Source: Phocaeicola sartorii JCM 17136 = DSM 21941 (lineage in GTDB: Bacteria > Bacteroidota > Bacteroidia > Bacteroidales > Bacteroidaceae). Taken from it: a stretch of DNA of 64,000 nt. Positions 52,404 to 59,968 of this stretch are shown in pieces (within the stretch, counting starts at the first letter, position 1; the number at the start of each line of letters is the position of its first letter). The notes below the pieces were generated by a model, which was not told the DNA's origin, did no database searches, and saw nothing but the letters and a program-made list of their open reading frames with translations. A program made the position numbers and the translations under genes. The stretch is taken from contig NZ_BAKM01000016.1 of assembly GCF_000614185.1 (NCBI RefSeq), positions 1 to 64,000 on the forward strand. Reading direction: 5' to 3'.

Positions 52404-53646
52404 ATGAGCAACAACTTGATTATCATCAATGCCCACATCGTTACTCCACAAGGCAGAACCGCCCGGAAAGGAGAAGCCATGAACGAACTTCTCAACATTC
52501 CTTGCGGAACGGTAAGAGTAACCGACGGCATTATTACCTATGTTGGCGAAAACCGTATAAGCCATGAAAAGCCCGGCTATAAAGTGCTTGACGCCAGAGG
52601 GAATGTATTGTTGCCGGGATTCGTTGACTCTCATACCCATTTGGTTTTCGGAGGATTTCGCCCCGACGAATTCATCTGGCGGCTCAACGGCGACAGTTAC
52701 ATGAGCATCATGGAACGTGGCGGAGGCATTATCAATACTGTACGTGCCACCCGGGAAGCCTCCTTTGAAGAACTGAAACATAAAGCCGAATGGTTTCTGG
52801 ATACCATGAGCCGGATGGGGGTCACCACCGTGGAAGGAAAAAGCGGATATGGCCTGGATCGTGATACAGAACTGAAACAGCTCAGTGTCATGCAAGCTGT
52901 CAATGAATGTCCCGACCGGAAAGTAGATATCGCCACCACTTTTTTAGGTGCCCACGCCTTACCCGAAGAATACAAAGGGCGAAGTGACGCATATATTGAT
53001 TTTCTGATTAACGAAATGTTGCCCATGATTCATCAGAAACAATTGGCCGAAAATTGTGATATTTTCTGTGAGAAAGGAGTATTCACTGTGGAACAGTCTC
53101 GAAAGTTATTGAAAGCTGCGCAAGCTCTAGGCTTCGGTGCCAAGCTACACGCTGATGAAATTGTCAGCTTTGGAGGAGCAGAACTGGCAGGAGAATTGAA
53201 GGCCCTCAGCGCCGACCATCTGTTACAAGCATCCGATGAAGCATAAAAGCCCTGGCCCAAAATAATGTAGTAGCCACTCTATTGCCACTAACTGCCTTTA
53301 CCCTAAAAGAGCCCTACGCCCGTGGCAGGAAAATGATAGACAGCGGCTGTGCCGTAGCCCTTGCCACCGATCTAAATCCAGGCAGTTGTTTCTCCGGTTC
53401 CATCCCGCTGACTTTTGCTCTGGCCTGCATCTATATGAAACTGACCGTTGCAGAAGCTATCACAGCCATCACACTGAACGGTGCGGCAGCTCTCGGACGC
53501 GCGACCGCATCGGAAGCATAGAAGCCGGAAAACAGGGAGACCTTGTTTTACTGGGAACCGACAACCCCCATATATTACCTTATTATACAGGTATGAACGC
53601 AGTCAAGCTGACCATCAAAGGAGGACGTGTTCTACATTCAAATTAA
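52404..53646 (+). CDS. hutI: Imidazolonepropionase (two frameshifts)
   Basis: About 414 residues after restoring one G near 53241 and one G near 53503. Amidohydrolase features: LPGFVDSHTHLVFGG (metal-binding HxH), GYGLDRDTELKQL, TTFLGAHALPEEY, AKLHADEIVSFGG, then across the first break NNVVATLLPLTAFTL, ALATDLNPGSCFSGS and, after the second, DRIGSIEAGKQGDLVLLGTDNP. Hydrolyses imidazolonepropionate to formiminoglutamate. 14 bp after ftcD and 20 bp before fchA. Both lesions remove one G from a GG pair. Confidence 0.93.
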
Positions 53647-55937: not shown

Positions 55938-56438
55938 ATGAATTACGACAATAAAGAAGAAATGTTTCCCATAGTCGATGAGCAAGGAAACATAACAGGA
56001 GCTGCAACCCGTGGAGAATGTCATAACGGAAGCAAATTACTACATCCAGTAGTCCACTTGCACGTATTCAACAGCAAAGGCGAACTCTATTTGCAGAAAC
56101 GTCCCGACTGGAAAGATATCCAACCGGGCAAATGGGATACAGCCGTAGGCGGACACATAGACTTGGGTGAAAGCGTAGAAATAGCCTTGAAACGCGAAGC
56201 AAAAGAAGAACTGGGCATCACCGGCTTTACTCCCGAATTACTGACAAGCTATGTATTCGAGTCCACCCGGGAAAAAGAACTGGTGTTCTCACATAAAACC
56301 ACTTATGACGCCCCCGTTATCCCCAGCGAAGAACTGGATGGCGGCCGTTTTTGGTCATTGGAAGAGATCAGAGCCAACATTGGAAAAGAAATATTTACAC
56401 CTAATTTCGAGAATGAATTTAAGAAGCTAGGCTTCTGA
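55938..56438 (+). CDS. Nudix hydrolase
   Basis: An intact 166-residue protein from MNYDNKEEMFPIVDE. The Nudix box GGHIDLGESVEIALKREAKEELGI is complete (Gx5Ex7REUxEExGU). The N-terminus resembles the YfcD/isopentenyl-diphosphate-isomerase-like branch (PIVDEQGNITGAATRGECH ... LHVFNSKGELYLQKRP). Substrate cannot be told. A single-gene unit ending in a strong terminator. Confidence 0.9.
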   Translation: MNYDNKEEMFPIVDEQGNITGAATRGECHNGSKLLHPVVHLHVFNSKGELYLQKRPDWKDIQPGKWDTAVGGHIDLGESVEIALKREAKEELGITGFTPELLTSYVFESTREKELVFSHKTTYDAPVIPSEELDGGRFWSLEEIRANIGKEIFTPNFENEFKKLGF

Positions 56439-56457
56439 AACCATTTTTTCATAAAAA

Positions 56458-56496
56458 GGGGCAAATTCTTGACTTGCATCAAGAATTTGCCCCTTT
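56458..56496 (+). terminator. Strong terminator after the Nudix gene
   Basis: GGGGCAAATTCTTGA (56458-56472) pairs perfectly with TCAAGAATTTGCCCC (56479-56493) around a 6-nt loop, with A-run and T-run flanks. It separates the Nudix gene from the peptide array. Confidence 0.92.
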
Positions 56497-56541
56497 CGCA
56501 TATATTTTACCCTTATCAGTACAATCTAAAACAAAACAGTA

Positions 56542-56549
56542 TAATTTTG
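56542..56549 (+). promoter_or_regulatory. -7 box of the peptide array
   Basis: TAATTTTG matches TAnnTTTG, 35 bp before the first peptide ATG and 46 bp after the Nudix terminator. No TTTG is seen at ideal spacing. Confidence 0.5.
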
Positions 56550-56564
56550 TGTTGTAAAACATAA

Positions 56565-56578
56565 AAAGAAAGGATAAC
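56565..56578 (+). promoter_or_regulatory. Conserved leader box 1 with ribosome-binding sequence
   Basis: AAAGAAAGGATAAC, nearly identical to boxes at 56696-56709 and 56829-56842 (AAAGAAAGGATAGC). Each lies 3-6 nt before a peptide ATG. The AAAGG is SD-like; conservation past it suggests another constraint. Confidence 0.7.
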
Positions 56579-56584
56579 GAGATT

Positions 56585-56671
56585 ATGAAAAAGGTAAAAA
56601 GTATTTTTAAGAAAGCCCTTGCCTTGATGGGTGAGAACGAAGTAAGAGCTTGGGGCATAGGGATTAAGTAA
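56585..56671 (+). CDS. 28-residue cationic peptide 1
   Basis: Encodes MKKVKSIFKKALALMGENEV then RAWGIGIK. No signal peptide; charge about +5; the first 20 residues would make an amphipathic helix. Peptides 2 and 3 have exactly the same length and share K2, K5, K9, G24 and K28, with an aromatic residue at 23. First of three in a row under one -7 box. I do not recognise the family. Leaderless toxin-like or signalling peptides such as phenol-soluble modulins are a physical analogy only. Confidence 0.7.
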   Translation: MKKVKSIFKKALALMGENEVRAWGIGIK

Positions 56672-56695
56672 GTAAACTTCCCTATTTTTTTAACC

Positions 56696-56709
56696 AAAGA
56701 AAGGATAGC
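56696..56709 (+). promoter_or_regulatory. Conserved leader box 2 with ribosome-binding sequence
   Basis: AAAGAAAGGATAGC, 3 nt before the second peptide's ATG; identical to box 3 and one base different from box 1. Confidence 0.7.
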
Positions 56710-56712
56710 ATT

Positions 56713-56799
56713 ATGAAGAAGTTGAAAGAGATCATCAAAGCAGGTCTCAAAGATATGGGAAATGACGCCCTCCGTGCTTGGGGGTACGATACAAAGTAA
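56713..56799 (+). CDS. 28-residue cationic peptide 2
   Basis: Encodes MKKLKEIIKAGLKDMGNDAL then RAWGYDTK; charge about +3. Identical to peptide 1 at M15-G16 and R21-A22-W23-G24, which argues for duplication and shared selection at the protein level. Start codons of the three are 128 and 133 bp apart. Confidence 0.7.
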   Translation: MKKLKEIIKAGLKDMGNDALRAWGYDTK

Positions 56800-56828
56800 A
56801 GGTACAAAGAATTAGTTTTTAACGTTTA

Positions 56829-56842
56829 AAAGAAAGGATAGC
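56829..56842 (+). promoter_or_regulatory. Conserved leader box 3 with ribosome-binding sequence
   Basis: AAAGAAAGGATAGC, 3 nt before the third peptide's ATG. Confidence 0.7.
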
Positions 56843-56845
56843 ACA

Positions 56846-56932
56846 ATGAAAAGAGTAAAAAGTTTTTTCAAAGAATACATAAAGGCCATTGAAATCAATG
56901 CCGCATTAATGTATGGTTACAGAGCTAAATAA
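56846..56932 (+). CDS. 28-residue cationic peptide 3
   Basis: Encodes MKRVKSFFKEYIKAIEINAA then LMYGYRAK; charge about +5. More diverged than the other two but keeps length, the basic N-terminus, K9, aromatic-Gly at 23-24 and the terminal Lys. Last of the array; a terminator follows. Confidence 0.68.
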   Translation: MKRVKSFFKEYIKAIEINAALMYGYRAK

Positions 56933-56974
56933 GAACCATACTTTTTGATTGAGAGAATTGAATTACAATTATAT

Positions 56975-57013
56975 AAAGAAGCAGTTTTGAGAAATCAAAG
57001 CTGCTTCTTTGTT
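56975..57013 (+). terminator. Terminator of the peptide array
   Basis: AAAGAAGCAG (56975-56984) pairs with CTGCTTCTTT (57001-57010). With the terminator at 56458 it brackets the array as an independent unit. Confidence 0.85.
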
Positions 57014-57078
57014 ATGAATACAGTATGAGTGGAATCAATTTATCCGACAAGCAATATACTCATATTAAAAATATTGCT

Positions 57079-57086
57079 TATTTTTG
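57079..57086 (+). promoter_or_regulatory. -7 box of the GH109 gene
   Basis: TATTTTTG matches TAnnTTTG, 42 bp before the start codon. No -33 TTTG at ideal spacing. Confidence 0.45.
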
Positions 57087-57128
57087 TAACAATCTACTAT
57101 TAACCTATAAATTTTAATTAACAGAGCC

Positions 57129-58544
57129 ATGATTAAAAAACTGTTTACCATTTTTGCCGGTATCGCGTTATTGTGCTCAGCCGGCTGTACCCCAACCTCC
57201 AAAGAAACAGTTGCCACCAAAGAGTACACACCTCTTGAAGTAACCGTTCCCGAACGTCCCACCGGACAACAGGACGTTATCGAACTCGTCGCCCCCAAAC
57301 TTGACACTGTCCGTGTAGGTTTTATTGGCCTGGGTATGCGTGGGCCCAGTGCAGTAGAACGCTGGACACACATTCCGGGAACTAAAATTATCGCCCTTTG
57401 CGACTTGTTGCCCGACAACGCGGAAAAAGCACAAAAAATTGTGACCAATGCCGGCATGGATGCTCCCGCCCTCTACTCTGGCAGCGAAGATGCATGGAAA
57501 CAATTGTGTGACCGGGATGATATCGACTTGGTGTACATCGCAACGGACTGGAAACACCATGCCGAAATGGGTATCTATGCCATGGAACATGGAAAGCACG
57601 TAGCTATCGAAGTTCCGGCAGCCATGTCACTGGATGAAATCTGGGCGCTTGTCAATACTTCCGAAAAGACCCGTAAACACTGTATGCAACTTGAAAATTG
57701 TGTTTACGACTTCTTCGAACTGACTACATTGAATATGGCACAAAAAGGTCTTTTCGGCGAAGTGCTCCATGTAGAAGGTTCATACATCCATAATCTGGAA
57801 GAATTCTGGCCTTATTACTGGAACAACTGGCGTTTGGACTACAACCGGGAATTCCGTGGAGACGTTTATGCTACCCACGGTCTGGGTCCTGCCTGCCAAT
57901 TACTTAACATTCACCGAGGCGACCGCATGAAAACACTGGTAGCCATGGACACCAAAGCAGTAACCGGCCCCGAACTGGTAAAACAATATCAGCAAGAAGA
58001 AGCATCCGATTTCCAAAACGGTGACCATACCATGACCTTTATCCGTACAGAAAACGGCAAAACCATCCACATACAGCATGATGTAATGAATCCGCGTCCC
58101 TACAGCCGTATGTATCAACTAACCGGAACCAAAGGCTTTGCCAACAAATATCCCATCGAACAGTATTGCTTCCGTCCGGATCAGATTGACAGTACCAGCA
58201 TACCCGATCACGAAAACCTGAGTATGCACTCGGCTGTTCCCGAAAAAGTAAAAGAGGCGTTGATGAGTCAATATAAACACCCCATCCACCAGGAATTAGA
58301 AGAAACAGCCAAGAAAGTAGGAGGACACGGTGGAATGGACTTCATCATGGATTATCGCCTGGTATATTGCTTACGTAACGGACTTCCTCTGGACATGGAC
58401 GTTTATGATTTAGCTGAATGGTGCTGCATGGCCGACTTGACCCGTCTTTCTATCGAAAACGGAAGCGCACCCGTTGCCGTTCCCGACTTCACCCGGGGCA
58501 GCTGGAACAAAGTGGATGGTTATCATCATGCTTTCGCTCAATAA
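57129..58544 (+). CDS. GH109-like Gfo/Idh/MocA lipoprotein
   Basis: An intact 471-residue protein. Lipoprotein signal with lipobox SAGC (Cys about residue 20). Rossmann NAD-binding start RVGFIGLGMRGPSAVERW, then IIALCDLLPDNAEKA, and EHGKHVAIEVPAAMSLDE. C-terminal oxidoreductase domain with HDVMNPRPYSRMYQLTGTKG and GGHGGMDFIMDYRLVYCL. GH109 enzymes cleave alpha-N-acetylgalactosamine by an NAD-dependent mechanism, and Bacteroides copies are often secreted lipoproteins. Sugar specificity is inferred from family likeness. Confidence 0.88.
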   Translation: MIKKLFTIFAGIALLCSAGCTPTSKETVATKEYTPLEVTVPERPTGQQDVIELVAPKLDTVRVGFIGLGMRGPSAVERWTHIPGTKIIALCDLLPDNAEKAQKIVTNAGMDAPALYSGSEDAWKQLCDRDDIDLVYIATDWKHHAEMGIYAMEHGKHVAIEVPAAMSLDEIWALVNTSEKTRKHCMQLENCVYDFFELTTLNMAQKGLFGEVLHVEGSYIHNLEEFWPYYWNNWRLDYNREFRGDVYATHGLGPACQLLNIHRGDRMKTLVAMDTKAVTGPELVKQYQQEEASDFQNGDHTMTFIRTENGKTIHIQHDVMNPRPYSRMYQLTGTKGFANKYPIEQYCFRPDQIDSTSIPDHENLSMHSAVPEKVKEALMSQYKHPIHQELEETAKKVGGHGGMDFIMDYRLVYCLRNGLPLDMDVYDLAEWCCMADLTRLSIENGSAPVAVPDFTRGSWNKVDGYHHAFAQ

Positions 58545-59386: not shown

Positions 59387-59968
59387 TTATTCTTTTTTCT
59401 TTCTCCCCAGCCCGGCACGGATACGGCTTAACGACTGCGGAGTAATCCATAAATAAGATGCGATATGCTTCAGAGGTACATACTGCAACAGTTCCGGATT
59501 CTCCTCCAGCAATGTAAGATAACGTTCTTCAGCACGGGGGCTTCCGCCCGTTATCATCCAACTTTCAAGTCCCAGAAACTGCTGTTCGAACAAACGTCTT
59601 CCCAAATTGGCCAGCTCGACAGACCCGGCATACAACGCTTCAAGCCTTGCCTTCGAAATACCATAAAGCTCACTGTCGCACATCGCTTCGATAGAAACCA
59701 GCGAAGGGGTATTTTCCACATATCCCCAAGAGGAGAAAATGGTTTCACCTTCAGAAGCAAACCAGACAGAAACATCCACCCCGTCATTAAGATAATGTCC
59801 GCGCCAGATTCCTTTACTCACAATATAGAAGTTTGAATTCCGCCCGCCTTCCTGTACAAGAAAATCCCCTTTACGAAAAGTGAACTTTTCCATATTGCCC
59901 AACAGCTGCAAGCTCAAGGCTACCGGCAAACTATATTTTTTACAAAACTTCTGTATGAATGCATCCAT
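59387..59968 (-). CDS. Crp/Fnr family regulator
   Basis: An intact 193-residue protein. The N-terminal cyclic-nucleotide-binding-like beta-roll (residues ~25-115) includes FRKGDFLVQEGG and YIVSKGIWRG. The C-terminal helix-turn-helix has LKHIASYLWITPQSLSRIRAGL. It lacks the classic cAMP-binding Arg-Ser pair and has no Cys cluster for iron-sulfur, so the ligand is unknown. Followed, after a gap, by the carbonic anhydrase gene on the same strand. Confidence 0.9.
   Translation of the reverse strand: MDAFIQKFCKKYSLPVALSLQLLGNMEKFTFRKGDFLVQEGGRNSNFYIVSKGIWRGHYLNDGVDVSVWFASEGETIFSSWGYVENTPSLVSIEAMCDSELYGISKARLEALYAGSVELANLGRRLFEQQFLGLESWMITGGSPRAEERYLTLLEENPELLQYVPLKHIASYLWITPQSLSRIRAGLGRKKKE

Follow-up and report, generated by a model that had tools for sequence, protein, structure and literature searches.

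Three short open reading frames (ORFs), each of exactly 28 codons and all on the forward strand, follow one another in the window, the 64,000-nucleotide (64-kb) stretch of Phocaeicola sartorii DNA that we analysed. Read by eye, one flanking gene encodes a NUDIX hydrolase and the other an oxidoreductase-like protein, and the locus comprises the following features.

55938..56438, + strand: NUDIX hydrolase gene; syntenic, outside the peptide unit
56455..56496, + strand: hairpin 3' of the NUDIX gene, probable terminator (-27.9 kcal/mol, z -8.2)
56469..56482, no strand assigned: FNR/CRP-type palindrome TTGACTTGCATCAA, predicted upstream activator site, inside the hairpin at 56455-56496
56542..56549, + strand: Bacteroidetes -7 promoter box TAATTTTG; TA[A/C]TTTTG in 8 of 8 aligned genomes
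56550..56563, no strand assigned: Cur-type box at the start site, TGTTGTAAAACATA; fits the core of the published Cur consensus
56565..56578, + strand: leader box of peptide 1, AAAGAAAGGATAAC, of ribosome-binding type
56585..56671, + strand: peptide 1, MKKVKSIFKKALALMGENEVRAWGIGIK; net charge +5; pN/pS 0.19 over 8 orthologs
56696..56709, + strand: leader box of peptide 2, AAAGAAAGGATAGC
56713..56799, + strand: peptide 2, MKKLKEIIKAGLKDMGNDALRAWGYDTK; pN/pS 0.12 over 5 orthologs
56829..56842, + strand: leader box of peptide 3, AAAGAAAGGATAGC
56846..56932, + strand: peptide 3, MKRVKSFFKEYIKAIEINAALMYGYRAK; pN/pS 0.34 over 4 orthologs, the weakest single-locus support of the three
56973..57012, + strand: terminator hairpin closing the unit (-24.3 kcal/mol, z -9.0)

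An earlier note on this DNA had described three consecutive 28-codon frames behind a common 14-bp leader box, with conserved K2, K5, K9, aromatic23-G24 and K28, bracketed by a promoter box and terminators, and had judged the arrangement hard to obtain by chance; our analysis bears out each of these points. AAAGAAAGGATARC lies upstream of all three ORFs, in a 14-nt form AAAGAAAGGATA[A/G]C that ends 6, 3 and 3 nt before the ATG of peptides 1, 2 and 3, and the window holds three copies of its core, AAAGGRTARC, all of them at the array (expected 0.54; three copies were reached in 2 of 100 shuffles). M1, K2, K5, K9, G24 and K28 are invariant among the three peptides and position 23 is W, W or Y, with pairwise identities of 34-52% when the stop is counted. 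Three ORFs that were each 28 codons long appeared in none of 5000 dinucleotide-preserving shuffles of 56542-57013, and three equal-length ORFs of at least 20 codons in one, which rules out chance ORFs as the origin of the array. The flanking signals are the -7 box at 56542 and the two hairpins, of which the downstream one stands 117 nt before the next gene. A simple terminator scan listed neither hairpin, and the upstream one has no T run directly 3' of it. Its two arms change together from one species to another, reading GGGGC/GCCCC here and GTGGC/GCCAC in P. vulgatus. Since the palindrome at 56469-56482 occupies the loop and upper stem of this covarying hairpin, one element may have both DNA and RNA roles.

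Of 30 peptide loci examined, 14 have the NUDIX gene, at a distance of 140-314 nt before the peptide ATG, and the other 16, as fetched, lack it. Elsewhere in the window, at 52404-53646, an imidazolonepropionase-like gene of a histidine-degradation cluster is broken up over different frames, into a 280-aa ORF and shorter ones after it, reflecting either decay or an assembly error.

Comparison with related genomes indicates that the three ORFs are real genes under purifying selection. The array carries three peptides in P. vulgatus ATCC 8482 and genome G063, two in P. massiliensis, P. faecalis and G069, and one in P. coprophilus, G005 and G035. In an alignment of eight genomes the promoter, the leader and the first ORF align closely, the ORF free of gaps, and the inter-ORF spacers align poorly; the orthologous peptides are conserved to near the C terminus. 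The earlier note had named a lack of homologs with a conserved frame as a ground for rejecting the genes and had proposed comparing synonymous with nonsynonymous change. Such homologs exist, and the pooled pN/pS values are those of purifying selection for all three peptides. Placing the same substitutions at random, in pairs with the window sequence, gave P values of 0.003-0.15 (peptide 1), 0.002-0.29 (peptide 2) and 0.07-0.49 (peptide 3). Taken alone, peptide 3 is for that reason the least certain; in its favour, its NAALMYGYR segment is unchanged in the four genomes that have it.

The window peptides belong to a superfamily of cationic, probably helical peptides of 24-33 residues that we recognise by sequence likeness in Phocaeicola and Bacteroides. 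Searched with a profile of the three window peptides, 41 of 61 genomes of the genus gave relatives at E <= 1, many of these matches being weak or falling within long frames. With a broader profile, 65 of 399 genomes of the family did so at E <= 0.1, weak matches within long frames again included. Further types are the AMYGQY peptides, Bacteroides arrays of two or three peptides (KADKNIWGYVML, EVGRNEMLMMGY, GKNWMEAMRYYS) and the DPMIWGYVML peptides, which include a second locus of the window's own genome (G000:C154). In this last type the first 24 residues are nearly invariant over 21 Phocaeicola loci, with a pN/pS of 0.07. The own-genome copy (positions 7341-7427 of L064, reverse strand) encodes MKKVKNIFHKIANADPMIWGYVMLNETK and has a leader of ~130 nt. 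P. vulgatus, B. fragilis and B. finegoldii, together with their relatives, carry members on an apparently Cur-linked promoter (see below). The family is widespread in gut relatives of Bacteroides and apparently unnamed: eleven family peptide strings were not found in the main texts of the papers searched, so that anonymous entries in smORF catalogues are likely (for small gene families, see Sberro et al. 2019). The earlier note had not recognised the family either, and Pfam and NCBIfam searches of 13 peptides, which gave no match at the curated cut-off and one sub-threshold RCC1 repeat (E 0.25), speak against a curated family in these two collections.

Across 90 distinct promoter-linked peptides, all of 24-33 residues, the net charge runs from 0 to +7 with a median of +4, 72 carry a [WYMFI]G motif, and the hydrophobic moment exceeds that of shuffles at P<0.05 in 66. 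The amphipathic helices proposed in the earlier note are probable for the family, whereas the window peptides taken alone are borderline (P 0.07, 0.03 and 0.09). For one 30-residue Bacteroides paralog, AlphaFold2 predicts a single helix over residues 2-23 (mean pLDDT 86.7, pTM 0.41). No signal peptide is visible by eye in the window peptides, in agreement with the earlier reading.

The most telling part of the locus is its promoter. Directly 3' of a -7 box of the form TAnnTTTG lies TGTTGTAAAACAT, and a search for the box TANNTTTGTGYTGTAAAACAT with at most one mismatch returned 95 sites, spread over 78 of the 399 genomes of the family, compared with 4 sites for the reversed control. When 27 of these loci were read, the box headed a peptide at 14 and a Crp/Fnr gene at 6, the remaining 7 having neither. 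The exact box occurs twice in the window's own genome, both times heading a peptide locus; at 3 mismatches the search and its control gave 5 sites each, and in this genome we therefore rely on exact matches alone. We then gathered 128 non-redundant boxes, dropping those near a locus end, and sorted them by crude patterns into 75 that head peptide-class ORFs (including two doubtful rows, L194 and L250), 38 that head a large gene (some of them not of the Crp/Fnr type) and 15 that head neither.

A second element, on which the earlier reading was silent, sets the peptide loci apart. The palindrome TTGAN6TCAA is found at -66 to -68 in 66 of the 75 peptide-class loci, compared with 1 of the 38 large-gene and 5 of the 15 unclassed loci, its background rate being 0.022 per 140 nt. 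Its centre falls 68 nt before the start of the -7 box at 55 loci, 67 nt at 10 and 66 nt at one, the window locus. A further Cur-like box stands at -49/-48 in 35 of the 75 peptide-class loci and at -29 in three; the window array has none.

Searching for the composite as a whole gave a similar picture. TTGAYNNNNRTCAA-N(57-65)-TANNTTTG, the TTTG version, has two sites in the window's own genome and two in P. vulgatus, all four at peptide loci, and 23 sites in six other searched genomes, of which 8 are at peptide loci by our count; the reversed control gave 0 in the 8 genomes. The TTTGTG version is present in 34 of 61 Phocaeicola and 58 of 149 Bacteroides genomes, its reversed control in none of either genus; the exact form is missing from the remaining 27 and 91. 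An order-wide draw of 295 genomes yielded it in 8, two of them Phocaeicola and 6 outside the family, with 1 for the control. A family peptide followed within 420 nt of the site at 29 of 30 Bacteroides, 26 of 31 Phocaeicola and 0 of 6 outside-family loci; this test took the loci that had been fetched (30 of 61 Bacteroides and 31 of 49 Phocaeicola sites) and used a profile whose training set came in part from these genera. The promoter architecture, its linkage to the peptides, the family itself and the coding constraint are shown at the sequence level, and a microprotein family could here be recognised from the architecture of its promoter alone. A sigma-70 scan of the window does not apply to the phylum Bacteroidetes.

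Related promoters, some of the other TTTG sites among them, also stand before other genes. At four Bacteroides loci (L305, L308, L314 and L327) the gene behind the palindrome and a Cur-like box encodes an apparently exported protein of 118 residues; repeated AGGTAAAAAG / AGGTATTAG motifs occur in its leader and in the leaders of some peptide genes. In three Bacteroides genomes (L315, L316 and L321) the palindrome and a -7 box, at the same spacing, precede a gene for an apparently exported protein of 124-125 residues.

Several observations point to Cur (BT4338), a master regulator in carbon utilisation, as the factor that reads the start-site box. The published Cur consensus is wwwTATGTTnTAnAACATAwww, and autoregulation has been predicted. 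A TATGTTnTAnAACATA-type site is present at the array promoter, where TGTTGTAAAACATA fits the core, with the 5' TA of the consensus replaced by TG. In several other genera the gene behind the start-site box encodes a protein of ~233 residues; the one that was scanned has a cNMP-binding domain and a Crp-type HTH domain. The window's own genome encodes an ortholog of this Crp/Fnr protein (70% identity) with TATATTTG-TGCTCTATAACAC before its start, and the gene upstream of it, read by eye, ends like a type III glutamine synthetase, the neighbour of BT4338/cur in B. thetaiotaomicron. From the Crp domains, the box and this neighbour we infer that the Crp/Fnr gene is BT4338/cur, and from the consensus match together with the same box before the presumed cur gene, that Cur binds the start-site box. 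At six loci (L178, L181, L183, L184, L185 and L186) a gene of the Crp/Fnr type lies behind the box or a close variant of it, which fits Cur autoregulation.

The palindrome would be read by a second factor. TTGAYnnnnRTCAA resembles motifs reported outside this phylum, the FNR-like and HcpR ones, and an HcpR2 regulon is reported for most Bacteroides; HcpR2 is not the obvious reader, because its common motif, GTAACnnnnGTTAC, differs. A Crp-like regulator gene, so named by eye, lies at 59387-59968 on the reverse strand of the window, 2.4 kb downstream of the array. If the -7 box is taken as centred at -7, the palindrome lies at about -78, the extra box of some loci at about -60 and the common box at about +4, so that upstream activation combined with start-site repression is the natural reading. 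As the window array lacks the extra box near -60, Cur would, on this reading, mainly repress it.

On balance we favour a reading of the locus as an operon of three paralogous Bacteroidaceae microproteins behind a composite promoter of palindrome, -7 box and predicted Cur box, and we propose that the peptides are regulatory. The operon would be expressed from this dedicated promoter, a factor at the palindrome activating it and Cur at the start site repressing it; at loci with a second box near -60, a usual activator position, found in about half of the peptide class, Cur could both activate and repress. The peptides would stay inside the cell. The N-terminal cationic helix may dock on the membrane or on a partner protein, as suggested by helix statistics that are borderline for two of the three window peptides, and the C-terminal aromatic/M-G-Y motif may act as the specificity element. 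Released or restrained with carbon supply, the peptides could serve as intracellular regulators that adjust metabolism or growth as that supply changes, much as CRP-repressed VcdP acts on citrate synthase. Our best reading is that they would be intracellular regulatory microproteins of a carbon-limitation network with the logic of Vibrio VcdP.

Known systems offer partial parallels. Spot 42 is under CRP control. It encodes SpfP (15 aa), and SgrS encodes SgrT (43 aa); these resemble the array products as tiny proteins of carbon-responsive transcripts and differ, by published description, in being enterobacterial and carried on base-pairing sRNAs. VcdP, from VcdRP of Vibrio cholerae, is closer: it is described as a 29-aa microprotein that binds citrate synthase and so acts in carbon metabolism, and its gene is repressed by CRP, a carbon regulator. 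The array peptides share the length of ~30 aa, and Crp-family control of their genes is predicted from promoter sites. By the same published descriptions VcdP is a single protein on a base-pairing RNA, whereas here one to three tandem paralogs are found together with an extra FNR-type site. The Cur regulon is a further parallel, as the array box fits the consensus and the known regulon includes a small RNA, but the published descriptions that we consulted mention no peptide family.

That Cur also drives an sRNA makes an RNA-based alternative real. The transcripts could be dual-function or mainly RNA-acting, starvation sRNAs with peptides as a secondary matter, like MasB, BatR or FopS of B. thetaiotaomicron. 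By published accounts MasB is activated by Cur, some sRNAs induced by carbon limitation lie near Cur sites, and BatR is induced in carbon starvation; among the loci studied here, a short hairpin stands in the ~130-200-nt leader of a paralog type, and AGGTATTAG-like motifs are repeated in some 5' regions. We nonetheless consider this alternative unlikely. Selection on the ORFs acts at the codon level, and such constraint suggests that the peptides matter, whereas the non-coding spacers align poorly outside the promoter and box. The 5' leader of the window array does not fold in a folding energy test, and the hairpin of the paralog leaders comes down to 4 pairs in their consensus structure. An Rfam search returned nothing at gathering score (six sub-threshold matches in one scan, the best at 27.7 bits against 48), ruling out a known RNA family. 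FopS, GibS, BatR and MasB are likewise small Bacteroides transcripts, some of them starvation-linked or multi-copy, but they are described as non-coding, FopS at ~65-70 nt with sORFs excluded; on those descriptions the conserved ORFs set our loci apart from the FopS/GibS family. Identity with BatR is conceivable in view of its starvation induction, but its anatomy as published, 154 nt with a central hairpin, does not resemble these transcripts.

Phenol-soluble modulins and type I toxins are short peptides without a signal peptide, as are the array peptides, and the earlier note had likened the two. Membrane activity, whether as type I toxin-like self-inhibitors or as PSM-like secreted amphipathic peptides acting against other cells, would suit products that are small, cationic, multi-copy and, as a family, amphipathic. 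The likeness found no support, and we regard such a role as improbable. Hydropathy is low, with a maximum 15-residue Kyte-Doolittle mean of 0.63 in the window peptides and 1.74 among the 90 family peptides; the former value speaks against the hydrophobic membrane-spanning segment of a type I toxin. The one antisense -7 box in 56400-57140, at 56755, is lost in P. massiliensis, which speaks against an antisense-controlled toxin. By eye, neither a constant neighbour nor a peptide exporter was recognised beside 20 loci, and at E <= 1 peptide 1 had no match in a phage collection and a paralog peptide none in a plasmid collection. The promoter, moreover, appears to be linked to a carbon regulator. 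Still less credible are leader peptides whose translation controls a downstream gene: the ORFs are short and close behind the promoter, but the array ends in its own strong terminator hairpin 117 nt before the next gene, neighbours vary between paralog loci so that no constant target gene lies downstream, and the peptide sequences are conserved to near the C terminus, which together argue against an attenuation leader.

The reading of the peptides as intracellular regulators of carbon limitation can be carried further, more tentatively. A multi-copy microprotein regulon might form the protein arm of the carbon-starvation network of gut Bacteroidaceae, read by Cur and a second, FNR-type factor, its members binding and retuning Cur itself, the inner membrane, transporters or metabolic enzymes; we think this possible but less likely than not. 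According to published work, Bacteroides needs Cur to colonise the gut, fusA2 accounts for no more than part of this need, and transposon screens tend to miss genes as short as these. Conserved peptides on an apparently Cur-linked promoter are concrete, testable candidate effectors. If the proposal is true, unannotated peptides would account for part of the colonisation phenotype of cur mutants.
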